The notes beneath the pieces are model-generated. The model made no database searches and was not told the DNA's origin. It saw only the letters and a list, made by a program, of their open reading frames with translations. Positions 22,742 through 44,198 of a stretch of 64,000 nucleotides of DNA are shown here, piece after piece. Origin of the DNA: Tropicimonas sp. IMCC6043 (GTDB lineage Bacteria; Pseudomonadota; Alphaproteobacteria; Rhodobacterales; Rhodobacteraceae). Position numbers and translations under genes: made by a program. Positions within the stretch are counted from its first letter, which is position 1. Every line of letters begins with the position of its first letter. The stretch lies in NCBI RefSeq assembly GCF_004146235.1, contig NZ_SELO01000001.1:248001-312000 (forward strand), read 5' to 3'.

Positions 22742-24037
22742 ATGAAGGACGACCCACAGGACCGCGGCGACGAGCGGAAGATCCACCCGACACCGTTGCT
22801 GGACGAGCTCGAGGACGGCCCCTGGCCGAGCTTCGTGACCGGCCTCAAGCGGCTTCGCGACGAAGGCTCCGAAAGCAACCGCAAGATCATGAATGACCTG
22901 CTCGGTCAGCTCAACCATTCCTACGAGAACCGGATGGGCTACTGGAAGGGCGGCACGGTCTCGGTCTTCGGCTATGGCGGCGGCATCATCCCGCGCTTCT
23001 CCGAGGTCGCGGACAAGTTCCCGGAATCGAAGGAGTTCCATACGCTGCGGGTCATGCCGCCGGCGGGCTATCACTACACGACCGAAATCCTGCGCAAGAT
23101 GTGCGACATCTGGGAGCGGCACGGCTCGGGCCTCATCGCCTTCCACGGCCAGTCCGGGGATATCATGTTCCAGGGCTGCACCACGGAGAACACCCAGAAG
23201 GCGTTCGACGAGCTCAACGAGATCGGCTTCGACCTCGGTGGCGCCGGACCTGCGCTGCGCACGGCGATGTCCTGTGTCGGCCATGCCCGCTGCGAGCAGT
23301 CCTGTTATGACGAGGTCCGGGCACACCGGACGATCATCAACAAGCTCCTGGACGAGATGCATCGCCCGGCCCTGCCCTACAAGTTCAAGTTCAAGTTCTC
23401 GGGCTGCGCCAACGACTGCGTGAACGCCATCCACCGCGCCGATTTCGCGGTGATCGGCACCTGGCGCGACGACATCAAGATCAACCAGGAGAAGGTCAAG
23501 GAGCACATCGCCGCCAAGGGCCGGAAATACACGATCGACACCGTCGTCTCGATGTGCCCGACCCGCGCGATCTCGCTCAACGACGACGACACGATCGAGA
23601 TCGACAACAAGTCCTGCGTGCGCTGCATGCACTGCATCAACGTGATGACCAAGGCGCTCAGCCCGGGCGATGACCGGGGTGTCTCGATCATGATCGGCGG
23701 CAAGCGGGCGCTGAAGATCGGCGACCTGATGGGGATCATGGTGGTGCCCTTCATGAAGCTGGAAACCGACGAGGATTTCGAGAAGCTCGAGGATTTCGCA
23801 GAGCGCGTCGTGGAGTTCTTCGCCGACAACGCGCTGGAGCACGAACGCGTGGGCGAGACAATCGACCGGATCGGCCTGCCGGCCTTCCTCGAAGCGCTCG
23901 ACATCGAGCCCGACCCGAACATGGTCAACCATCCGCGGACCTCCTGCTACGTGCGCACCGACGATTTCGACGAGGAGGCGGAGAAGTGGTTCGAGCGCAA
24001 GGCGCGCGAGGCGGGGCTTCAGATCAGCGCCGAATGA
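22742..24037 (+). CDS. dsrA: Dissimilatory (oxidative-type) sulfite reductase alpha subunit
   Basis: A 431-aa DsrA. The siroheme-[4Fe-4S] ligands are the pairs in CVGHARC and GCANDC, and a ferredoxin insert follows (CPTRAISL, then SCVRCMHCINV). In sulfur oxidisers DsrAB works in reverse, releasing sulfite from sulfur carried on DsrC. Oxidative direction is inferred from the partner set: DsrEFH and DsrL are present and dsrD is absent. Two tandem ATGs exist (22739 and 22742); the second has better spacing from GGGAGG. First gene of a 14-gene rightward run. Confidence 0.97.
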   Translation: MKDDPQDRGDERKIHPTPLLDELEDGPWPSFVTGLKRLRDEGSESNRKIMNDLLGQLNHSYENRMGYWKGGTVSVFGYGGGIIPRFSEVADKFPESKEFHTLRVMPPAGYHYTTEILRKMCDIWERHGSGLIAFHGQSGDIMFQGCTTENTQKAFDELNEIGFDLGGAGPALRTAMSCVGHARCEQSCYDEVRAHRTIINKLLDEMHRPALPYKFKFKFSGCANDCVNAIHRADFAVIGTWRDDIKINQEKVKEHIAAKGRKYTIDTVVSMCPTRAISLNDDDTIEIDNKSCVRCMHCINVMTKALSPGDDRGVSIMIGGKRALKIGDLMGIMVVPFMKLETDEDFEKLEDFAERVVEFFADNALEHERVGETIDRIGLPAFLEALDIEPDPNMVNHPRTSCYVRTDDFDEEAEKWFERKAREAGLQISAE

Positions 24038-26371: not shown

Positions 26372-26704
26372 ATGTCCTATCAGGTGAACGGTCACACGAT
26401 CGAGCACGACGAGGAAGGCTATATCACCACCCTCTCGGACTGGTCGAAGGAACTGGCCGACGAGATCGCCAAGGTCGAGAATATCGACATGACCGAGGAG
26501 CACTGGGCCGTCGTGAACTTCCTGCGGGATTACTACGACGAATACCAGATCGCGCCGGCCGTCCGGGTGCTGATCAAGGCGATCAAGAAGGAAATGGGCC
26601 CCGAGAAGGGCAACAACAAATACATGTATGAGTTGTTCCCCTACGGCCCGGCCAAGCAGGCGTGCAAGATCGCCGGTCTGCCGAAGCCGACCGGCTGCGT
26701 CTAA
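26372..26704 (+). CDS. dsrC: Sulfur-carrier protein DsrC
   Basis: A 110-aa DsrC with both redox cysteines on the flexible C-terminal arm: Cys98 (QACKIAG) and penultimate Cys109 (PTGCV), 11 residues apart as in true DsrC. It accepts sulfur from DsrEFH, is the substrate of DsrAB as a persulfide or trisulfide, and is reoxidised by the DsrK-containing membrane complex. The purine-rich leader and flanking hairpins suggest high expression. Confidence 0.97.
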   Translation: MSYQVNGHTIEHDEEGYITTLSDWSKELADEIAKVENIDMTEEHWAVVNFLRDYYDEYQIAPAVRVLIKAIKKEMGPEKGNNKYMYELFPYGPAKQACKIAGLPKPTGCV

Positions 26705-27505: not shown

Positions 27506-29041
27506 ATGGCGCCCAAGGACAGCGACGACATTCCCCGGATGCACCACCCGCTGGAGATCCCGAAGCTCAAATGCGGCGCAATGGAAGATTCGGCTCCCTA
27601 CCCCGCCTCGCCCGCGCATCAGGCCAGCGTCGGCTTCCCCGAAGAGCTGCTGCCCGACTGGAAGGAGCGCGCGCTGGCCAAGATGAAGGACCTGGCGGAG
27701 AAGAACCGCGCCTTCAAGGTCTATCTCGACGCCTGCGTGAAATGCGGCGCCTGCACCGACAAGTGCCACTACTTCCTCGGCACGGGCGATCCGAAGAACA
27801 TGCCGGTGGCCCGGCAGGACCTGCTGCGTTCGGTCTACCGCCGCTATTTCACCTTTGCGGGCAAGTATTTCCCGAAACTCGTGGGCGCGCGTGACCTGAC
27901 CGAGGAGGTGTTGGACGAGTGGTATTCCTATTACCACCAGTGCAGCCAGTGCCGCCGCTGTTCGGTCTTCTGCCCCTACGGGATCGACACCGCCGAGATC
28001 TCGATGGCGGCGCGCGAGATCATGGACGTGGTCGGCAAGGGCCAGAAATACTGCAACGAGATCATCGGCAAGGTCCATGTCGTCGGCAACAATCTCGGGC
28101 TCCAGGAGAAGGCGCTGCGCGCCACGCTGGAGGATCTCGAGGAGGAGATCGAGGAGGATACCGGCGTCTCGGTGCGCCTGCCGCTCGACGAGAAGGGCGC
28201 CGACATCCTGCTGATCACGCCCTCGGCCGATTTCTTTGCCGAGCCGCATATCGAGGGGCTCATCGGCTATGCCAAGGTGTTCCACGAGGCGGGCGTAAGC
28301 TGGACGATCTCGTCTCACGCCTCTGAGGCCGCCAATTTCGGCCTTTTCATCGGTTCCTACGAGAACATGCGGAAGGTCAGCCTGCGCATTCGCAAGGCGG
28401 CGCAGGATCTCGGCGTCAAGCGGATCATCTTCGGCGAATGCGGCCATGCCTGGCGGGTGGCCTATTCCTTCCTCAACACGCTTGCGGGGCCCTGGGATTT
28501 CCTCGACCCGAAATACCCGGTGCCGCAGCACATCCTCGAGTTTACCTGGGACCAGATCCAGCGCGGCAATCTCAAGCTCGACAAGTCGCAGAACGACCAT
28601 ATCCGGCTTACCTATCACGATAGCTGCAACGTCGCCCGCGCCTCGGGGATGGGCGACCAGCCGGGCGGGCAATTCGAGATCCCGCGCAACGTGATCCGCG
28701 CGGTGTGCAACCATTTCTACGACATGGACCGCGACACGATCCGGGAATCGACCTTCTGCTGTGGCGGCGGCGGCGGGCTCCTGACCGACGAGTTGATGGA
28801 CCTGCGCACCAAGGGCGCGGCGCCGCGAATGACGGCGCTCCAGCAGGTGACGGAGGAGCACGGGGTCACCCACATGGCCGCCATCTGCGCGATCTGCAAG
28901 ACGCAGTTTTCGAAGGTGATGCCGAAGTTCGGCTACGACATGGAGTCGATCGTCTCGGTGCACCAGCTGGTATCGAACGCCATCGTCCTGACCGGTCAGG
29001 GCGGCGCGGAGGACGAGGACGGGGAGGAGGACGCCGCCTGA
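27506..29041 (+). CDS. dsrK: DsrK, HdrD-like iron-sulfur subunit
   Basis: A 511-aa soluble protein with two [4Fe-4S] motifs (CVKCGACTDKCH near 76-87, CSQCRRCSVFCP near 146-157), an ECGH segment near 311-314 and a CCG domain (HDSCN, then CCGGGGGLL near 415-423, then CAICKTQF). The CCG site handles the DsrC disulfide or trisulfide at the cytoplasmic face. A second protein with the same layout is encoded at 39998-41293. Confidence 0.95.
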   Translation: MAPKDSDDIPRMHHPLEIPKLKCGAMEDSAPYPASPAHQASVGFPEELLPDWKERALAKMKDLAEKNRAFKVYLDACVKCGACTDKCHYFLGTGDPKNMPVARQDLLRSVYRRYFTFAGKYFPKLVGARDLTEEVLDEWYSYYHQCSQCRRCSVFCPYGIDTAEISMAAREIMDVVGKGQKYCNEIIGKVHVVGNNLGLQEKALRATLEDLEEEIEEDTGVSVRLPLDEKGADILLITPSADFFAEPHIEGLIGYAKVFHEAGVSWTISSHASEAANFGLFIGSYENMRKVSLRIRKAAQDLGVKRIIFGECGHAWRVAYSFLNTLAGPWDFLDPKYPVPQHILEFTWDQIQRGNLKLDKSQNDHIRLTYHDSCNVARASGMGDQPGGQFEIPRNVIRAVCNHFYDMDRDTIRESTFCCGGGGGLLTDELMDLRTKGAAPRMTALQQVTEEHGVTHMAAICAICKTQFSKVMPKFGYDMESIVSVHQLVSNAIVLTGQGGAEDEDGEEDAA

Positions 29042-35899: not shown

Positions 35900-36124
35900 T
35901 CAGTTCTTTTTGATCTCAAACTTGTAGATCTCGCCCTCGGTCGAGGAACTCAGGAGCTCGTTCCCGGTCTGGTTGCAGAAAGCCGCAAAATCGGCGACCG
36001 ATCCCGGGTCCGTCGCGCGGATTTCCAGCACCTGGCCGGCAGTCATTCCCTTGAGCGCTTTCTTGGCCCGCAGAATCGGCAGAGGGCAGTTGAGCCCTTC
36101 CGCATTGAGTAGTTGATCAGCCAC
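35900..36124 (-). CDS. tusA: Sulfur-carrier protein TusA
   Basis: A 74-aa SirA/TusA protein with the active Cys13 in NCPLPILRAKKAL and the DPGSVADF block. It receives sulfane sulfur as a persulfide and hands it toward DsrEFH in sulfur oxidisers. It is 28 bases downstream of dsrE2 and ends at a strong terminator. Convergent with the dsr operon. Confidence 0.95.
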   Translation of the reverse strand: MADQLLNAEGLNCPLPILRAKKALKGMTAGQVLEIRATDPGSVADFAAFCNQTGNELLSSSTEGEIYKFEIKKN

Positions 36125-36152: not shown

Positions 36153-36656
36153 TCAGATGAACAGGTTGATGTCGGATTTCAGTGCGGTCTCCATATAGGT
36201 CGCCGCGCCGCCGAGCTCGATGCCGTCGATCATGTCGTCCTTCGAGTATTCGAACAGGTCGAGCGTCATCTGGCAGGCGATCATGCGCACGTCGGACTCG
36301 ATGGCCGCCTCGCGCAACTCCTCGATCGAGGCCACGCCCTTCTTCTTGATCAGGTTCTTCATCATCGTGCCGGCAAGCCCGCCGGCGCCCGGCAGCATGC
36401 CCACCAGGTTCGGCATCTTCATGTGCCCGCCCATCATCGGCATTTCCATCGCCGCGTTGCCGAGCGTCGTAAAGCCGAGGTTGAGATCCTTCTTCAGCAG
36501 GACCAGCCCGTAGAAGGTGAAGAACATGGTCACTTCCACATCCATCGCCGCGGCCGTCGTGCCGAGGATGAAGGGCGGATAGGCCCAGTCGAGCGTGCCC
36601 TTGGTCACGATGATCGACATGCTCTTGGCGTTGTCGATTTGGCTGGTGTCCAGCAT
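36153..36656 (-). CDS. dsrE2: DsrE2-family sulfurtransferase
   Basis: A 167-aa DsrE2 protein: VTKGTLDWAYPPFILGTTAAAMD, a hydrophobic stretch VTMFFTFYGLVLL, a glycine/methionine-rich middle (MMGGHMKMPNLVG) and MIACQMTLDLF carrying the family cysteine. A GGGAGGA sequence precedes the chosen ATG; the longer frame lacks support. The tusA-dsrE2 pair is typical of dsr- and shdr-type sulfur oxidisers and is thought to load sulfur onto TusA. Confidence 0.93.
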   Translation of the reverse strand: MLDTSQIDNAKSMSIIVTKGTLDWAYPPFILGTTAAAMDVEVTMFFTFYGLVLLKKDLNLGFTTLGNAAMEMPMMGGHMKMPNLVGMLPGAGGLAGTMMKNLIKKKGVASIEELREAAIESDVRMIACQMTLDLFEYSKDDMIDGIELGGAATYMETALKSDINLFI

Positions 36657-37113
36657 GTGCGTCCTCCCGTCGCTTGGTTGACACATCTTAGCATTCATAA
36701 TTTCGAATGAATACTGAAGCTTCTGCCGCACCGCGGCATCGCCGCTCGCGCAACTCGTTGTAATACATACATCGTGCCGGGACCGCGTTGTGCCGCAAGG
36801 CAGAAAATTGCTTTCGAACGTCATGTCCGGTCGCGTCGACAGGCATTAGCGCCGCGTGCCCCACCCGTTCGAGAGTTCAGACAGTGCGCGCGTATCAGGG
36901 CAAATTCCCGTCCCTCGATCGCCACATACCGAATCGAGTGACGCAGGATGGACCCAGAAAGCAACAAAATTCACCCCGCGTCACAATATCATCACGCTTG
37001 GATCAAGACATGCTGATATTCGAATTATCGGATTCGGCGGAGACGAATGCGGCCGCGAGTCGGCAGGAACGCAAGCGCGCGCCATCACGTCGCGGATCGG
37101 GAGGAGACGCATC
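36657..37113. other. Divergent intergenic region dsrE2 / fadL-like gene
   Basis: 457 bp with no convincing gene. It is AT-richer than its surroundings near both ends. An inverted repeat ATTCAT-N8-ATGAAT (36693-36712) lies about 40 bases upstream of dsrE2 and could be an operator. No clear -35/-10 pair was found. Confidence 0.5.
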
Positions 37114-38567: not shown

Positions 38568-39851
38568 ATGGCACATGTCGTCGTGCTGGGCGCCGGGCTC
38601 GGCGGAATTATCATGGCGTACGAGGTGCAGGATCATCTCGGCCCGGATCATCAGGTTACAGCGATCAACAAGGGCACGACCTACGGTTTCGTGCCATCGA
38701 ACCCCTGGCTCGCCGTCGGGTGGCGCGAGAGGAAGGAGGTCGAGGTCGACCTTGTCACCATTCTGGAGCGTCGCAACATCCGGTTCCGTCCGGAAGGCGC
38801 GGCCCGCGTGCACCCGGACGAGAACCGGGTAGAACTGACCGGCGGCGACAGCGTCCCCTATGACTACCTGATCATCGCGACCGGGCCGGAACTGGCCTTC
38901 GACGAGATCGAGGGGCTTGGCCCGGAGGGCCACACCCAGTCGGTCTGCATGGTCGATCACGCGGTTCAGGCCAGGACCGCCTTCGACAAGCTCGTCGCCA
39001 ATCCCGGCCCGGTGATCATCGGGGCGGTCCAGGGCGCGAGTTGCTTCGGCCCGGCCTACGAGTTCAACTTCATCGTCGACACCGCGCTGCGCCGGGCCAA
39101 GGTGCGCGATAAGGTGCCGATGACCTTCGTGACCTCGGAACCCTATATCGGCCATCTCGGGCTCGACGGCGTGGGCGACACCAAGGGCCTGCTCGAGAGC
39201 GAGATGCGCGAGCACCACATCAAGTGGATCACCAATGCCCGGGTGAAGTCCGTCGAGGAAGGCATGATGCATGTCGAGGAGGTCGCCGAGGACGGCTCGG
39301 TCAAGGCCTCCCACGACCTGCCATTTGCTTTCTCGATGATGCTCCCGGCCTTCCGGGGGGTCGAGGCGGTTCGCGACATCGAGGGGCTGACCAATCCGCG
39401 CGGCTTCGTCATCGTCGACAAGCATCAGCGGAACCCGACCTATCCGAACATATTCGGGATCGGCGTCGGGGTGGCAATTCCGCCGATCGGACCAACCCCG
39501 GTTCCGGTCGGGGTACCCAAGACCGGCTTCATGATCGAGAGCATGGTGACCGCGACGGCGATGAACATCGCCTCCCTCGTGGCCGGCAAGGAGCCGCACC
39601 AGGTCGCCACCTGGAACGCGGTCTGCCTCGCGGATTTCGGCGATTCCGGCGTGGCCTTCGTCGCTCAGCCGCAGATCCCGCCGCGGAACCTCAACTGGTC
39701 GTCCTCCGGCAAATGGGTCCATTATGCCAAGATCGGCTACGAGAAATACTTCCTGCGGAAGATCCGGATCGGCAAGTCGGAACCCTATTACGAGCGCTTC
39801 GCTCTGAAGGCGCTCGGTCTCGACAAGCTGAAGGTCACACACCACGACTGA
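38568..39851 (+). CDS. sqr: Type I sulfide:quinone oxidoreductase
   Basis: A 427-aa flavoprotein of the disulfide reductase fold (VVVLGAGLGG at the N-terminus, FVPSNPWLAVGW near 41-52, YLIIATGP near 100-107). Cys127, Cys159 and Cys353 sit at the three positions catalytic in type I SQR, in the contexts SVCMVDH, GASCFGPAYEF and NAVCLADFGD. The C-terminus has amphipathic segments (GYEKYFLRKIRIG) for peripheral membrane binding. It oxidises sulfide to sulfane sulfur and reduces quinone, giving an entry to the TusA/Dsr route. Start supported by GGGAGGGG. Confidence 0.94.
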   Translation: MAHVVVLGAGLGGIIMAYEVQDHLGPDHQVTAINKGTTYGFVPSNPWLAVGWRERKEVEVDLVTILERRNIRFRPEGAARVHPDENRVELTGGDSVPYDYLIIATGPELAFDEIEGLGPEGHTQSVCMVDHAVQARTAFDKLVANPGPVIIGAVQGASCFGPAYEFNFIVDTALRRAKVRDKVPMTFVTSEPYIGHLGLDGVGDTKGLLESEMREHHIKWITNARVKSVEEGMMHVEEVAEDGSVKASHDLPFAFSMMLPAFRGVEAVRDIEGLTNPRGFVIVDKHQRNPTYPNIFGIGVGVAIPPIGPTPVPVGVPKTGFMIESMVTATAMNIASLVAGKEPHQVATWNAVCLADFGDSGVAFVAQPQIPPRNLNWSSSGKWVHYAKIGYEKYFLRKIRIGKSEPYYERFALKALGLDKLKVTHHD

Positions 39852-39857
39852 CGTTCC

Positions 39858-39885
39858 GGCCTGCGGCGCCGTAGCGCCGCGGGCC
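39858..39885 (+). terminator. Strong hairpin after sqr
   Basis: GGCC-U-GCGGCGC, loop CGTA, GCGCCGC-G-GGCC gives a 12-bp stem with one G-U pair beginning 7 bases after the sqr stop. No U-tract, so efficiency is uncertain; the next gene starts 112 bases later. Confidence 0.5.
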
Positions 39886-39997
39886 CCCTCACCTGTCCAA
39901 GCAGCAGCGCATCCGCGATGCGCTCTGGGACGCATGTCGTCTCCGGGCGGGATCGGCTATCCTTGCCAGCGGCAGATCTGAAGGCGGAGACACAGAC

Positions 39998-41293
39998 ATG
40001 GGGGCGCATTCCCGGGACAGAACCGTCGATTTCCTTGCCGTCGCGCGGGAGATCCTGCCGCCGGGCGCGAATTACGATTCCTGCGTCGGCTGTGGAATCT
40101 GCGCCTCGGGCTGCCCGGCGTCCGGCCTTTTCGGCATGGATCCGCGGCGCTTCATCAACATGGCCACGCTCGGGATGAACGAGGAGCTTGCAACCACGCC
40201 CTGGGTCTGGGCCTGCACCCAGTGCAAACGCTGCGCCTATCTCTGCCCGATGGGGATCGACGTGTCGCAACTCGTCGGCGTCGCCCGCGGGCTTTGGCCG
40301 GAAGAGGAGAAGCCCAAGGGCATCGTGCGCTCCTGCGCCGCGCAACGGATGGACGAGAGCACCAGTGCCATGGGCGTGCGCTCCAAGGATTTCGTCGAGA
40401 TCGTCGAGGAGACCGCTGAGGAGTTGCGCGAGGCCGACCCGCGTTTCGCCGATCTCAAGGTGCCCATCGACAAGAAGGGCGCGAAATTCGTCCTTAACCA
40501 GAACTCGCGCGAGCCGGCCGTCGAGCCGGAGGAGATGGGTCCGCTCTGGAAGATCCTCGACTATGTCGGCGCCGACTGGACCTATGCGTCCAAGGGCTGG
40601 GCGGCGGAAAATTTCTGCATGTTCACCGGCGATACCGAGGCCTGGCGGGAGATGGTGGAGACCCGCGTGTCGGCAATAAACGATCTCGACTGCGAGGTCT
40701 GGATCAACACCGAGTGCGGCCATTCCTTCTACACGCTCTGGCAGGGGATCGAGAGGTTCGGGCTCGAGGCGAATTTCGAGGCCGACACGCTCGTGACCTA
40801 TTACGCCCAGTGGATCCGCGAGGGAAAGCTTCCGGTCAACTCGGACTGGAACGTCAACAATATCAAGTTCACGGTGCAGGACCCCTGTCAGATGGTGCGC
40901 AAGTCGCTCGGCGACCAGGCCGCCGACGACCTGCGCTTCGTCGTGAAGACGCTGGTGGGCGAGGAAAACTTCATCGACATGCAGCCTTGCCGCAGCGCCA
41001 ACTATTGTTGCGGCGGCGGCGGCGGTTTCCTTCAGGCCGGGATGAATGACGCCCGCCGCGCCTATGGCAAGCGCAAGTTCGACCAGATCGCAGCGACCGA
41101 GGCGACATACGTGCTCACCCCTTGCCACAACTGCCACTCGCAGATCGAGGATATCGGCGAACATTATCAGGGCGGCTATCACGTGACCCATCTCTGGACG
41201 CTCATCTGCCTCTCGCTCGGCATTCTCGGGCCGGATGAGCGCAAGTATCTCGGCCCCGAATTGGCCGACCTCAACCTGCCGGACGAGGCATGA
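39998..41293 (+). CDS. DsrK/HdrD-like iron-sulfur protein (CCG domain)
   Basis: A 431-aa protein with HdrC-like double [4Fe-4S] motifs (CVGCGICASGCP near 29-40, CTQCKRCAYLCP near 74-85, each in the FINMATLGMNEEL-type context) followed by an ECGH segment and a CCG domain (DPCQ, CCGGGGGFL near 341-349, then CHNCH). DsrK has the same order, including ECGH and CCGGGGG. It overlaps glpA by four bases, where GlpC would be expected, but GlpC-specific motifs are not seen. Role inferred: electron transfer from sulfur or thiol/disulfide substrates, or a replacement for GlpC. No membrane segment is present. Confidence 0.85.
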   Translation: MGAHSRDRTVDFLAVAREILPPGANYDSCVGCGICASGCPASGLFGMDPRRFINMATLGMNEELATTPWVWACTQCKRCAYLCPMGIDVSQLVGVARGLWPEEEKPKGIVRSCAAQRMDESTSAMGVRSKDFVEIVEETAEELREADPRFADLKVPIDKKGAKFVLNQNSREPAVEPEEMGPLWKILDYVGADWTYASKGWAAENFCMFTGDTEAWREMVETRVSAINDLDCEVWINTECGHSFYTLWQGIERFGLEANFEADTLVTYYAQWIREGKLPVNSDWNVNNIKFTVQDPCQMVRKSLGDQAADDLRFVVKTLVGEENFIDMQPCRSANYCCGGGGGFLQAGMNDARRAYGKRKFDQIAATEATYVLTPCHNCHSQIEDIGEHYQGGYHVTHLWTLICLSLGILGPDERKYLGPELADLNLPDEA

Positions 41294-42885
41294 ACGTGCG
41301 GGTTCACGAGACCGAAGTCCTGATCATCGGCGCCGGCGCGACCGGCTCGGGCATCATGCGCGACCTCGCGTTGCGCGGCATCCACTGCCTGCTGATCGAC
41401 CGGCGGGACCTCAACGCCGGCGCCTCGGGCGGCAATCACGGGCTCCTGCACAGCGGCGGACGCTATGCAACGGCCGATGCCGAGACCGCCGCGGAATGCC
41501 GCCGCGAAGGTGAGATCCTGAAGCGATTGGCGCCGGAATGCATTGACGATTGCGGCGGGCTCTTCGTCGCCGTCGAGGGGGATGACCCGGATTTCGCCGC
41601 CCGCTTCCCGGAGCATTGCCGGGTCGCGGGCATTCCCTGCGAGGCGCTCACGCCCGCCGAGGCGCGGGAGCGGGAGCCGGCGCTGCCGGAGACGGTCTTC
41701 GCCGCTTATACGGTGCCCGACGCCACCATCGACCCGTTCCGCATCGTGCTCGAAAATGTCGGTCAGGCACAGCAGGCGAATGGCAGCCGCTACCTGCCGC
41801 ATACCGGCGTCGAGGGCTTCGACATCGAGGATGGCGAGATCGTCCGCACCCGCTGTCGCGACCACCGCTGCGGCGACCCGGTCGAGATCCGTGCCCGGCA
41901 GGTCGTCAACGCCAGCGGCGCCTGGGCGGAGAAGGTCGCCCGGCTCGCGGGCTGCACCGATGTCACCCTGCTCTGCTCCAAGGGCACGCTTCTCATCAGT
42001 AACGCCCGCGTCACCAACGGCGTCGTCAACCGGCTCCGCCCGCCCGATGATGGCGACATCCTTGTGCCCGGCGGCACCGTCTCGCTGCTCGGCACCTCCT
42101 CGGTCACGGTCGAGGACCCCGACGATATCCGCCCGACGATCGCGGAGGTCGACCGAATCCTCGCGGAGGGAGCGGCGATGCTTCCGATTTTGAACGAAAC
42201 CCGCTTCGTCCGCGCCTTCAGCGGCGTGCGTCCGCTCCTCAGGGCGCCGGGTTCGGAGAGTGACGGCCGCAAGGCGAACCGCGGATTCGCGCTTTTCGAC
42301 CACGAGGACCAGGGGTTGACGAATTTCGTCACTGTTGCGGGCGGCAAGTTCACCACATTCCGGCTGATGGCGGAGAAGGCCGGCGATCTCGTCGCGCGCC
42401 GCCTCGGCAACAGCGAGCCCTGCAAGACGGCGCTGGTCCCCCTGCCCTCCGGCGATGCGCTGCGCTGGACCGATCCGGGTGCTGCGGCGCGCGACTGGTA
42501 TCGCCGCGCCGACCCGACCGACATGATCCTCTGCGAGTGCGAGATGGTCGCCCGCTCCGCAGTCGACACGATCCTCGCCGAGGCGCCCGGCGCCGAGGAC
42601 CACATGAGCCTGCGCGCCATTGCACTCCGCAGCCGCATCGGCAAAGGCGCCTGCCAGGGCGCCTTTTGTGCGCTCCGGGTCATGGCGCATCTCTACGACC
42701 GCGGCGTCTATGACGGGCCGGACGGGCTCAGGCAGGCGCGGGACTTTGTCGAGGGCCGCTTCCGTGGCGTCCGGCCGGTGCTCTGGGGCGCACAGATGCC
42801 ACAGGCCGAACTGGCCGAGATCCTGCATTGCGGCCTCGCCGGCATGGACCTTGCCGCGGCCGAAGACGAAGGGCGGACAGGATGA
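41290..42885 (+). CDS. glpA: Anaerobic glycerol-3-phosphate dehydrogenase subunit A
   Basis: A 531-aa FAD-dependent dehydrogenase: IIGAGATGSGIMRDLALRG at the N-terminus, NHGLLHSGGRYA near 46-57, catalytic DAO fold to about 390, and a BFD-like [2Fe-2S] domain at the C-terminus (LCECEMV, then GKGACQGAFCALR). GlpA oxidises glycerol-3-phosphate to dihydroxyacetone phosphate. The ATGA overlaps on both sides tie it to the DsrK-like gene and glpB. Confidence 0.92.
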   Translation: MNVRVHETEVLIIGAGATGSGIMRDLALRGIHCLLIDRRDLNAGASGGNHGLLHSGGRYATADAETAAECRREGEILKRLAPECIDDCGGLFVAVEGDDPDFAARFPEHCRVAGIPCEALTPAEAREREPALPETVFAAYTVPDATIDPFRIVLENVGQAQQANGSRYLPHTGVEGFDIEDGEIVRTRCRDHRCGDPVEIRARQVVNASGAWAEKVARLAGCTDVTLLCSKGTLLISNARVTNGVVNRLRPPDDGDILVPGGTVSLLGTSSVTVEDPDDIRPTIAEVDRILAEGAAMLPILNETRFVRAFSGVRPLLRAPGSESDGRKANRGFALFDHEDQGLTNFVTVAGGKFTTFRLMAEKAGDLVARRLGNSEPCKTALVPLPSGDALRWTDPGAAARDWYRRADPTDMILCECEMVARSAVDTILAEAPGAEDHMSLRAIALRSRIGKGACQGAFCALRVMAHLYDRGVYDGPDGLRQARDFVEGRFRGVRPVLWGAQMPQAELAEILHCGLAGMDLAAAEDEGRTG

Positions 42886-44198
42886 AACGCAGGTCCCGCC
42901 GCATTGACACCGATCTCGCGGTGATCGGCACCGGAATCGCCGGATTCGCCGCGAGCCTCTTCGCCTGCCGCCGCGGCCTCGAGGTGGCCCAGTTCGGCCA
43001 TAGCGGCGCGATGGCCTATACCACCGGCTATCTCGACCTGCTCGGCGTTCAGGACGGCCGGGTGCTCGACGATCCCTGGGACGGGCTCGGCGCACTGCGC
43101 CGCGAGACGCCGGAGCACCCGTTGGCGCGGCTGCCGGACGAGACCATCCGCACGGCCTTTGGCCTCTTCACCGAGGCGCTCACCGAGATGGGCCTTGGCT
43201 ACACCGCGCCCGGCGAACGCAACCTGCGCGCCTTGCTGCCGAACGGGCTCGTCAAGTCGACGCTGTCGGTGCCGCAAACGATGCTGCCGGGATGCGAGGC
43301 CCTTGCGCAGCGCGCACGCACGCTGGTGCTCGATTTCGACGGGCTTCAGGGCTTCAGCGCCCGCGCCTTCGAAGCCAACCTCGCGGAGCGCTGGCCGGGT
43401 CTCAGTTCGGCGCGGCTTACCTTCCCGGGGATGGAGGACCGGCAGGTCTTTCCCGAGGTCATGGCCCGGGCGCTGGAGACCCGCCAGACGCGGGAGGCAC
43501 TGGTCGATCTCATCCGGCCGCAGCTCGATGGTGCGGAGTATGTCGGCCTGCCGGCGATCCTCGGGATGCAGGCGCCTGACCGCATTCGCACAGAGATGGA
43601 AGCCGCGCTCGGCGCGACGCTCTTCGAGATCCCGACCATCCCGCCCGCGGTCCCCGGCATTCGCCTGCGCGAAGGTTTCGAACGCACGATGCCCGAGCGC
43701 GGCGTGACGCTCGACCCGGTGCTCAAGGTGTCCAGGGTCCGTTTCGGTGCGGCGGGCGCGACGCTCACCCTGCACGGCGCGATGGAAGATATCGAGGTCG
43801 AGGCCCGCGCCGTGCTGCTGGCCACCGGCCGATTCCTGTCCGGTGGCCTGCGCGCTGATCGAACGCAGGTCAGCGAGACGCTTCTGGGCCTACCGATCCG
43901 CCAGACGGAAAGCCGCAACGACTGGTATCGTAAGGATTATTTCGATCCGGCCGGACACCCGGTGAATCGGCTCGGGATCGAGGTCGACGCCTCGTTCCGC
44001 CCGGTCGATGCCGCGGGCGATCCGGTGCAGGACACCCTTTTTTCCGCTGGTGCTATCCTAGCGCACCAGGACTGGGTCCGGCAGCGCTGCGGCGCCGGGC
44101 TGGCGATCGCCTCGGCCTATGCCGCCGTCGACTCCGCCGCCGCCCATCTCACGCCCGAGGGCCAGCCCCCGGACCGGTCGGTCAGATCGGATCGGTGA
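42882..44198 (+). CDS. glpB: Anaerobic glycerol-3-phosphate dehydrogenase subunit B
   Basis: A 438-aa FMN/FAD-type flavoprotein (LAVIGTGIAGFAASLFACRRGLEV, AYTTGYLDLLG, and the C-terminal GAILAHQDWVRQRCGAGLAIASAYAA). It forms the flavin core with GlpA and normally passes electrons to the iron-sulfur subunit GlpC. Here the iron-sulfur partner is probably the DsrK-like protein upstream. The stop lies inside the 3' end of the convergent cyclase gene (17-base overlap). Confidence 0.88.
   Translation: MKRRSRRIDTDLAVIGTGIAGFAASLFACRRGLEVAQFGHSGAMAYTTGYLDLLGVQDGRVLDDPWDGLGALRRETPEHPLARLPDETIRTAFGLFTEALTEMGLGYTAPGERNLRALLPNGLVKSTLSVPQTMLPGCEALAQRARTLVLDFDGLQGFSARAFEANLAERWPGLSSARLTFPGMEDRQVFPEVMARALETRQTREALVDLIRPQLDGAEYVGLPAILGMQAPDRIRTEMEAALGATLFEIPTIPPAVPGIRLREGFERTMPERGVTLDPVLKVSRVRFGAAGATLTLHGAMEDIEVEARAVLLATGRFLSGGLRADRTQVSETLLGLPIRQTESRNDWYRKDYFDPAGHPVNRLGIEVDASFRPVDAAGDPVQDTLFSAGAILAHQDWVRQRCGAGLAIASAYAAVDSAAAHLTPEGQPPDRSVRSDR

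Follow-up and report, generated by a model that had tools for sequence, protein, structure and literature searches.

A putative glycerol-3-phosphate dehydrogenase with an HmcF/DsrK-type iron-sulfur subunit at the place of GlpC in Tropicimonas and other bacteria

Genes for heterodisulfide-reductase-like (Hdr-like) proteins have been described beside glpAB, which encode subunits A and B of the anaerobic glycerol-3-phosphate (G3P) dehydrogenase. In Desulfobacterium autotrophicum, hdrF1 and hdrF2 are clustered with glpAB (PMC2702500), and a figure legend gives a Pseudodesulfovibrio glycerol cluster as containing Hdr-like BCA and glpBA (PMC11505543). The present work deals with a 64,000-nucleotide stretch (the window) of the genome of Tropicimonas sp. 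IMCC6043 (contig NZ_SELO01000001.1, positions 248,001 to 312,000 of the forward strand), in which the gene of a 431-amino-acid iron-sulfur protein, named FES, is followed by glpA and glpB.

Among the proteins that FES resembles, TmcB is predicted to serve DsrC (PMC10553843) and DsrMK reduces DsrC-trisulfide (PMC10504309). DsrC also partners FlxABCD-HdrABC (PMC10920352, PMC10504309), and this redox hub has so far been described as served by the membrane complexes DsrMKJOP and Tmc, and by Flx-Hdr (PMC10553843, PMC10920352). For HydSL of Thiocapsa, whose genes are accompanied by isp1 and isp2, reduction of sulfur was reported (PMC10892978). An iron-sulfur protein beside an Isp-type hydrogenase has been named 'GlpC' (PMC7787665), a naming muddle within the same superfamily, and an archaeal GlpABC has been mentioned (PMC11291895). 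In the excerpts of open-licence PubMed Central literature, no description was found of the FES-GlpAB trio, of its spread to sulfur oxidisers or of a link between GlpAB and DsrC. What is already in print is the presence of Hdr-like genes beside glpAB; what appears to be new is the HmcF/DsrK-type FES-GlpAB trio, together with a specific hypothesis on its electron acceptor. We propose, with a probability of roughly 0.8, that FES-GlpAB is a catabolic G3P dehydrogenase in which an HmcF/DsrK-type subunit resembling HdrC-HdrB has taken the place of GlpC.

The iron-sulfur subunit and the FES-GlpAB unit

The trio consists of the following genes.

39998-41293, + strand: FES, 431-amino-acid iron-sulfur protein at the GlpC place, HdrC-HdrB-like and HmcF/DsrK-type as judged from family models, tree, predicted fold and motifs
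41290-42885, + strand: glpA, anaerobic G3P dehydrogenase subunit A (PRK11101 passed)
42882-44198, + strand: glpB, anaerobic G3P dehydrogenase subunit B (TIGR03378 passed)

These three open reading frames, and that of sqr upstream, sit where the initial annotation had placed them. FES and glpA share a 4-bp ATGA overlap (glpA start at 41290), which had been noticed before, and a second 4-bp ATGA overlap joins glpA to glpB (start at 42882). The earlier wording, according to which a DsrK-like protein is fused translationally to glpA-glpB, thus stands for the coupling by overlap and falls for the fusion, since three separate reading frames are present.

FES contains two CxxCxxCxxxC ferredoxin motifs, starting at residues 29 and 73, an ECGH motif at 239-242 and a CCGGGGG motif at 337, as had been described in the initial annotation. 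The ECGH and CCGGGGG motifs are shared with the DsrK of the window. A single complete CCG motif was recognized (C297-x39-CC-x37-CxxC), whose second gap is one residue above the HdrB-type spacing, which we take to be CX31-39CCX35-36CXXC. By comparison, two CCG stretches and no ECGH were seen both in E. coli GlpC and in the 14 GlpC rows examined. When scored against NCBIfam models, FES reached 194 bits with HmcF (NF045711, cut-off 750), 167 bits with TmcB (NF045724, cut-off 735) and 124.2 bits with DsrK (NF045796, cut-off 400), and it failed both GlpC models (PRK11168, 48.3 bits for a cut-off of 278; TIGR03379, 38.8 bits for a cut-off of 279.9). Because every score was below its cut-off, FES belongs to none of the HmcF, TmcB, DsrK and GlpC equivalogs. 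Its identity was 21.5% to E. coli GlpC (E 1.8e-8), 23.9% to the window DsrK and 26.9% to Tropicimonas Isp2.

A tree of 69 rows was calculated with IQ-TREE; it held no HdrD row, no row above the TmcB cut-off and a single HmcF row. The 19 GlpAB-linked FES rows formed a single clade (support 100/100). Nearest to it were 17 paralogue rows, mostly from sulfate reducers and themselves not one clade, followed outward by a few other rows and HmcF, the deeper join having a support of 91/69. DsrK formed its own 100/100 clade and the Isp2-like rows also grouped separately, and a 100/100 branch separated GlpC and GlcF from FES. The order of the deep branches is unsure because several of them (HmcF, GlcF, others) are long. 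Judged from this tree, FES is closer to HmcF and to the sulfate-reducer paralogues than to DsrK proper. Canonical GlpC was ruled out as an identity for FES by both GlpC models and by the tree position, and DsrK proper by the NF045796 score and the separate DsrK clade. A phylogeny had been suggested as a check, with grouping inside canonical GlpC as the refuting result; no such grouping was seen.

The predicted fold was examined on an AlphaFold2 model built from 67 rows (mean predicted local distance difference test score, 86.6). Its best full-length match was Mycobacterium smegmatis EtfD (Z 22.8, 374 aligned residues, root-mean-square deviation 3.9), and residues 162-426 matched HdrB chains with Z values of 18.2-19.4 at about 14% identity. 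A Foldseek search with the model gave LutA and HdrB (E 3e-5 to 1e-3). The model also matched LutA (Z 18.0) and, with Z 17.2 over 328 aligned residues, 3kwl, a functionally uncharacterised protein of Helicobacter pylori; neither match was used for interpretation. Furthermore, the profile of the FES alignment A3 matched HdrC within its first 100 positions, the FES N-terminus (E 1.7e-13). By sequence, no close solved relative of FES was found, only weak matches to HdrC, HdrB, iron-sulfur-binding reductase and ferredoxin-like chains. The HdrB-like C-terminal fold and HdrC-like N-terminus suggest that FES resembles an HdrC-HdrB fusion. EtfD passes electrons to menaquinone and HdrB reduces heterodisulfide, so that the fold leaves the acceptor undecided.

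The distribution of the trio was followed by scanning genome contigs with the FES alignment and two peptide patterns, which yielded 159 relatives. Only the 80 best of these were retained, and as the scan rests on those patterns, relatives with neither of them are missed. The 80 comprised 71 relatives of the GlpAB-linked type (L044-L114) and nine TGA-bearing paralogues (L115-L123), the latter being 57-60% identical to FES and having no GlpAB in the flanks examined. With the window, 72 loci were thus considered. GlpA or GlpB lay at most 300 bp from FES in 70 of them and both were found in 67. The order FES-A-B was seen in 49 loci, the window included, and A-B-FES, which is that of the Desulfobulbaceae-type rows, in 21 (including L079, where only GlpB was seen). 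The two exceptions were L071, where the contig ends just past FES, and the Magnetococcales locus L065 (genome G672), the sole clear break of the trio, where FES stands alone, GlpAB being on another contig, and adjoins two genes that we take to be methionine-sulfoxide-reductase-like. The linkage of FES to GlpA or GlpB in 70 of 72 loci is not due to chance.

The loci came from alpha-, beta- and gammaproteobacteria, from Magnetococcales and from sulfate reducers of the Desulfobulbaceae type. In none of the trio loci did the examined flanks show an E. coli-type GlpC. Among 398 sampled Pseudomonadota genomes, GlpB was present in 18, 14 of which had an adjacent canonical GlpC and four the trio without it. 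A close FES was found in two of 198 sampled genomes of the host family, both belonging to the genus of the host, and the wider scan added further family members. In the tree, four of the five betaproteobacterial FES rows nested among the Desulfobulbaceae-type rows. Carriage of FES on plasmids was also considered and was rejected, as only two weak matches (24% and 34% identity) were obtained. The failed GlpC models, the tree position on the HmcF side, and the contrast between trio flanks in which GlpC was not found and 14/14 canonical GlpB loci with GlpC support the first alternative of the initial annotation, namely that GlpC has been replaced by a DsrK/HdrD-type subunit.

GlpA scored 475.4 bits against PRK11101 (cut-off 425), while GlpB scored 215 bits against TIGR03378 (cut-off 174.15) and 490.6 bits against PRK05329.2-4 (cut-off 345). 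GlpA is 39.5% identical to E. coli GlpA and carries the C-terminal CEC...CQGxxC motif of the latter. Its residues H54, R58, Y59 and R314 correspond to H50, R54, Y55 and R317 of GlpD, presumably catalytic or substrate-site positions, and are also found in E. coli GlpA. Glycerol or G3P genes occurred in the examined flanks of at least 41 of the 72 trio loci; GlpK was seen in at least 21, an ATP-binding cassette (ABC) transporter marked by DUF2160 in 15, GlpD in 12, Ugp in 10, a DeoR-type regulator in nine and GlpT in one, all these counts being lower bounds because many loci end early. The DUF2160 and DeoR identities of the query proteins were confirmed by Pfam; we take DUF2160 to be a glycerol-transporter family and the DeoR-type protein to be GlpR. 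Three close relatives (L044, L048 and L072) have a DUF2160-marked transporter at the trio locus. The GlpA and GlpB families, the conserved GlpA residues and motif, and this gene context argue for a role in G3P catabolism. Elsewhere in the host genome (G000, 5.46 Mb), glpD and glpK are found together with the gene of a GlpR-like regulator (C81; L136:6670-10763), so that FES-GlpAB would be the second G3P dehydrogenase of the host.

The cysteine of the ECGH motif was specifically considered. A single in-frame TGA was present in 26 paralogue rows, which come from genomes of deltaproteobacterial type, and in 26 of 26 it aligns to FES C240, the ECGH cysteine. These rows were taken from L115-L123, L138-L142 and L149-L165, mostly sulfate-reducer loci, and include at least one duplicate pair (L119 and L149 are the same locus). 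No in-frame TGA was present in any GlpAB-linked row (L044-L114), and C240 did not vary in alignment A3 (67 FES rows), from which L056, L097 and L151 were left out because their coordinates crossed a stop or were out of frame. From the alignment, we infer that the TGA of the paralogues is decoded as selenocysteine, giving E-Sec-G-H. An exchange between cysteine and selenocysteine is a usual mark of a redox-active thiol, and ECGH is therefore probably a reactive site. The TGA thus singles out this cysteine as probably the redox-active thiol across the DsrK/HmcF/TmcB family.

In one of these paralogue loci (L123:2792-12908), the TGA-bearing protein is accompanied by two HdrA-like proteins, an MvhD/FlpD-family protein, a MetV-type protein (methylene-tetrahydrofolate reductase C-terminal by Pfam) and a methylene-tetrahydrofolate reductase, the FES-type subunit standing where HdrCB might be expected.

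For FES-GlpAB, we infer complex formation, cofactors, direction and acceptor along the following scheme. GlpA, with flavin adenine dinucleotide, would oxidise G3P to dihydroxyacetone phosphate, and the electrons would pass from GlpA via GlpB to FES. Within FES, they would travel through two ferredoxin-type [4Fe-4S] clusters to the CCG-bound cluster and from there to C240 of ECGH. If the replacement of GlpC is right, one class of G3P dehydrogenase has its own electron exit, and in many sulfur bacteria it is a mistake to annotate such genes as an incomplete GlpAB plus a stray iron-sulfur protein.

Sulfur genes in trio genomes and the electron acceptor

In the window, a dsr cluster is followed by a gene for a FadL-type porin, sqr, FES, glpA and glpB. 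The cluster also encodes DsrE, a DsrP-like protein (under the cut-off) and, where dsrN would stand, a member of the CobB family. The genes that bear on the acceptor are listed below.

22799-24001: dsrA, within the dsr cluster of the window
26372-26704, + strand: dsrC with a C-terminal CX10C, its product being the proposed acceptor for electrons from FES (TIGR03342, 166.6 bits)
27506-29041, + strand: dsrK of the dsr cluster, the FES paralogue used as reference (NF045796, 612 bits, cut-off 400)
35903-36124, - strand: tusA, sulfur relay (PF01206, 79.1, cut-off 28.6)
36153-36824, - strand: dsrE2, sulfur relay (NF047629, 215.8, cut-off 210)

DsrA was searched for in 49 trio genomes drawn from the 71 GlpAB-linked loci (L048 is not among them), matches to the DsrA model that lay in long frames and scored near or below 50 bits being counted, as a matter of judgement, as other sulfite/nitrite reductases. 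It was found above the cut-off in 35 genomes, and eight more showed either a DsrB-like match or fragments, most of them at the ends of contigs (G935, G947, G954, G957, G968, G969, G975 and G976). DsrA was not found in the remaining six of the 49 (G934, G937, G949, G951, G956 and G961). At E 1e-25, DsrA or DsrB was present in 31 of the 39 proteobacterial trio genomes (those not labelled Desulfobulbaceae or 'Deltaproteobacteria') versus 50 of 394 genomes of the phylum without the trio; for the former group, the count becomes 33 with the two weakest fragments and 26 above the cut-off. Fisher's test of 31/39 versus 50/394 gave p = 2e-18, a value that overstates the case because the genomes are related.

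A DsrC/TusE-family match was obtained in 13/13 and 36/38 trio genomes of two sets, the misses being G957 and G958. The family was present in 39 of 41 Pseudomonadota trio genomes versus 12 of 98 non-trio genomes of the host family (14/100 with both trio genomes), two groups of unequal taxonomic breadth. DsrC is told apart from TusE by its CX10C tail. Read in the best locus per genome, this tail was seen in 33 of the 41 trio genomes, and also in all seven non-trio family loci read. Five of the six trio genomes in which DsrA was not found (G934, G937, G949, G951 and G956) kept a CX10C DsrC, and the sixth, G961, had only a TusE-like fragment. In G007, a congener of the host that has a CX10C DsrC, the search with FES listed only FES and an Isp2 among matches better than E 5e-4, with no DsrK match of the kind obtained in the host.

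A physical link with sulfur relay genes was observed in a few Rhodobacteraceae. The metagenome-assembled genome G937, where DsrA was not found, carries dsrE-dsrF-dsrH-dsrC, tusA-dsrE2 on the opposite strand and, divergent from dsrE2, FES-glpA-glpB, followed by a solute-binding protein gene and ABC-transporter genes with DUF2160, the whole forming one island (L050/L199; L199:4885-11559). In Tropicimonas marinistellae (L198), another genome without found DsrA, a [NiFe] hydrogenase with Isp1 (TmcC-like) and Isp2 (DsrK/TmcB-like) lies within 10 kb past the trio and is followed by dsrE2-tusA-dsrE-dsrF-dsrH-dsrC (L198:6911-14157). In G007, the trio is separated by 10 to 18 kb from the hydrogenase-dsr genes, which have the opposite orientation and among which Isp1, TusA, DsrE and DsrF were not called (L203:5135-12407), and in G956, again without found DsrA, the hydrogenase-dsr run is on a different contig from the trio (L202:3572-10456). 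The other flanks gave isolated weak matches only, to the DsrC family (34%, L105), TusA (38%, L086) and a piece of hydrogenase small subunit (L098).

The predicted service of related CCG proteins to DsrC, the co-occurrence with DsrA and DsrC, and this linkage lead us to propose tentatively that the acceptor of FES is a disulfide, trisulfide or persulfide of DsrC; we hold DsrC and quinone to be about level as acceptors, with a slight preference for DsrC. It is rather doubtful that FES-GlpAB would go as far as to act as a G3P:DsrC oxidoreductase that bypasses the quinone pool, serving the last step of sulfite reduction in sulfate reducers and the conversion of sulfane sulfur to sulfide where DsrAB is absent. 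In organisms without DsrAB but with DsrEFH-TusA-DsrE2-DsrC, a reducing FES and the relay, in some together with an Isp-type hydrogenase, would make up a route by which sulfane sulfur is reduced over DsrC. Should DsrC be the acceptor, the trio would provide a soluble, carbon-fuelled entry into the DsrC redox hub, and this would explain why some marine Rhodobacteraceae in which DsrA is not detected have kept DsrC.

A number of points weigh against a DsrC-linked G3P dehydrogenase. With 551.7 bits, GlpA is short by 1.1 bits of the TIGR03377 cut-off (552.8), and no glycerol gene adjoins the trio in the window itself. In the phylum sample, 50 of 53 genomes with DsrA are without the trio; dsrC is near the trio in very few loci, as far as flanks were examined; and the CX10C tail was absent or unseen in eight of the 41 trio genomes (G935, G942, G947, G950, G957, G958, G961 and G976), all of them metagenome-assembled genomes or bins. 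Among the neighbouring genes of FES in the window, to which the search was confined, no Isp1-like membrane cytochrome-b partner was found.

Of the alternatives, transfer of the electrons from FES-GlpAB to quinone is given a little less than an even chance. E. coli GlpABC feeds quinone, and the best full-length structural match of FES is EtfD, which we take to be menaquinone-linked; the GlpK and transporter context of the trio and its maintenance in six genomes without found DsrA point the same way. These arguments are opposed by the higher frequency of DsrA and DsrC in genomes with the trio and by the ECGH motif, which is absent from the 14 GlpC rows and whose cysteine aligns with the TGA of the paralogues. 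Furthermore, the only other ECGH-type match found in G007 was an Isp2, which belongs to a hydrogenase encoded next to dsr relay genes.

A similar chance is given to the explanation, compatible with a quinone acceptor, that the co-occurrence with Dsr is merely ecological, the trio having spread by gene transfer among bacteria of sulfidic, anoxic habitats. The co-occurrence may indeed reflect habitat and gene transfer, since the rows are not phylogenetically independent, and the patchy spread (2/198 genomes of the family and 4/398 of the phylum) and the nesting of the betaproteobacterial rows fit this explanation. It accounts less well for the CX10C DsrC kept in five of the six genomes without found DsrA, one of which links the trio to dsrEFHC.

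A third explanation is that GlpAB no longer acts on G3P and has become a repurposed flavoprotein module of a sulfur electron-transfer complex. The missing glycerol gene beside the trio in the window and the separate glpD-glpK locus of the host would agree with it; the retention of H54, R58, Y59 and R314 and the glycerol genes of the other loci, including the DUF2160 transporter in L044, L048 and L072, make it very improbable.

The sqr gene and the surroundings of the trio

Upstream of FES, two further features were recorded.

38568-39851, + strand: sqr, sulfide:quinone reductase (SQR), probably not a member of the trio unit
39858-39885, + strand: G+C-rich hairpin of 12 bp between sqr and FES, with no T-run

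SQR matched PDB entry 3sz0, which we take to be the Acidithiobacillus ferrooxidans sulfide-quinone reductase (phmmer E 2.6e-144), and its only three cysteines, 127, 159 and 353, are presumably the catalytic set of SQR; by similarity, SQR is genuine. Folding of 39849-39997 gave a z value of -2.29, with one of 200 shuffles equally stable, and the hairpin does not qualify as a standard terminator since the T-run is absent. The terminator scan of the window called no terminator between sqr and FES; the promoter and terminator scan was uninformative (0 promoters; 3 terminator-like sites versus 2.9 expected).

The proposal that sqr-FES-glpAB is one sulfide-oxidation operon, with SQR and GlpAB on a shared electron circuit, can draw on the common strand, on the gap of 146 bp in the window and on the fadL-sqr-FES-glpAB order repeated in Aliiruegeria lutimaris (L044), but is very improbable given that sqr adjoins the trio in only two of the 72 loci, that L044 has a 956-bp gap and that a hairpin lies between sqr and FES. 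SQR was therefore rejected as part of the FES-GlpAB unit.

The second alternative of the initial annotation, the recruitment of GlpAB to a thiol or sulfur electron circuit beside SQR and Dsr, is thus indirectly supported on the Dsr side, through the co-occurrence with DsrC and the few Rhodobacteraceae linkages, and fails on the SQR side. Conservation of the trio in relatives that do not oxidise sulfur, which had been named as refuting evidence, was found in part, the trio being present in sulfate reducers and in the six genomes without found DsrA.

At its other end, the tail of glpB overlaps by 17 bases (44182-44198) the tail of a convergent gene for a 1034-amino-acid cyclase/ATPase-type protein (TOMM_kin_cyc-like, under the cut-off).

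Comparison with described systems

With GlpABC of the E. coli type, the trio shares the GlpA and GlpB families, coupled genes, a glycerol context and an iron-sulfur subunit having two ferredoxin motifs and a CCG motif. It differs from it by the ECGH and the one complete CCG motif of FES, where GlpC has two CCG stretches, and by a gene order FES-A-B or A-B-FES instead of A-B-C with GlpC. The two ferredoxin motifs, ECGH and a CCGGGGG-type motif are common to FES and to HmcF, TmcB and DsrK, whose NCBIfam models gave the top scores; FES is distinguished from them by scores under the cut-offs, by GlpAB as its partner and by the lack of a membrane cytochrome gene beside it in the window. To HdrCB and HdrD, FES is related by the HdrB-like predicted fold of residues 162-426 and the HdrC-like N-terminus, but it is only about 14% identical to HdrB.

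The Isp-type [NiFe] hydrogenase (small subunit-Isp1-Isp2-large subunit) is similar in that a dehydrogenase is coupled to a DsrK/TmcB-like subunit, Isp2. It adjoins dsrEFHC in Tropicimonas, in two genomes without found DsrA and in G007, near the trio in two of these three cases, and differs by its TmcC-like membrane partner Isp1 and by H2 as donor. Finally, the glpAB clusters of Desulfobacterium and Pseudodesulfovibrio also have GlpAB beside heterodisulfide-reductase-like proteins; according to the excerpts, these are a membrane-bound HdrF or separate HdrBCA-type genes, in contrast with the soluble, HmcF-type FES of the trio.

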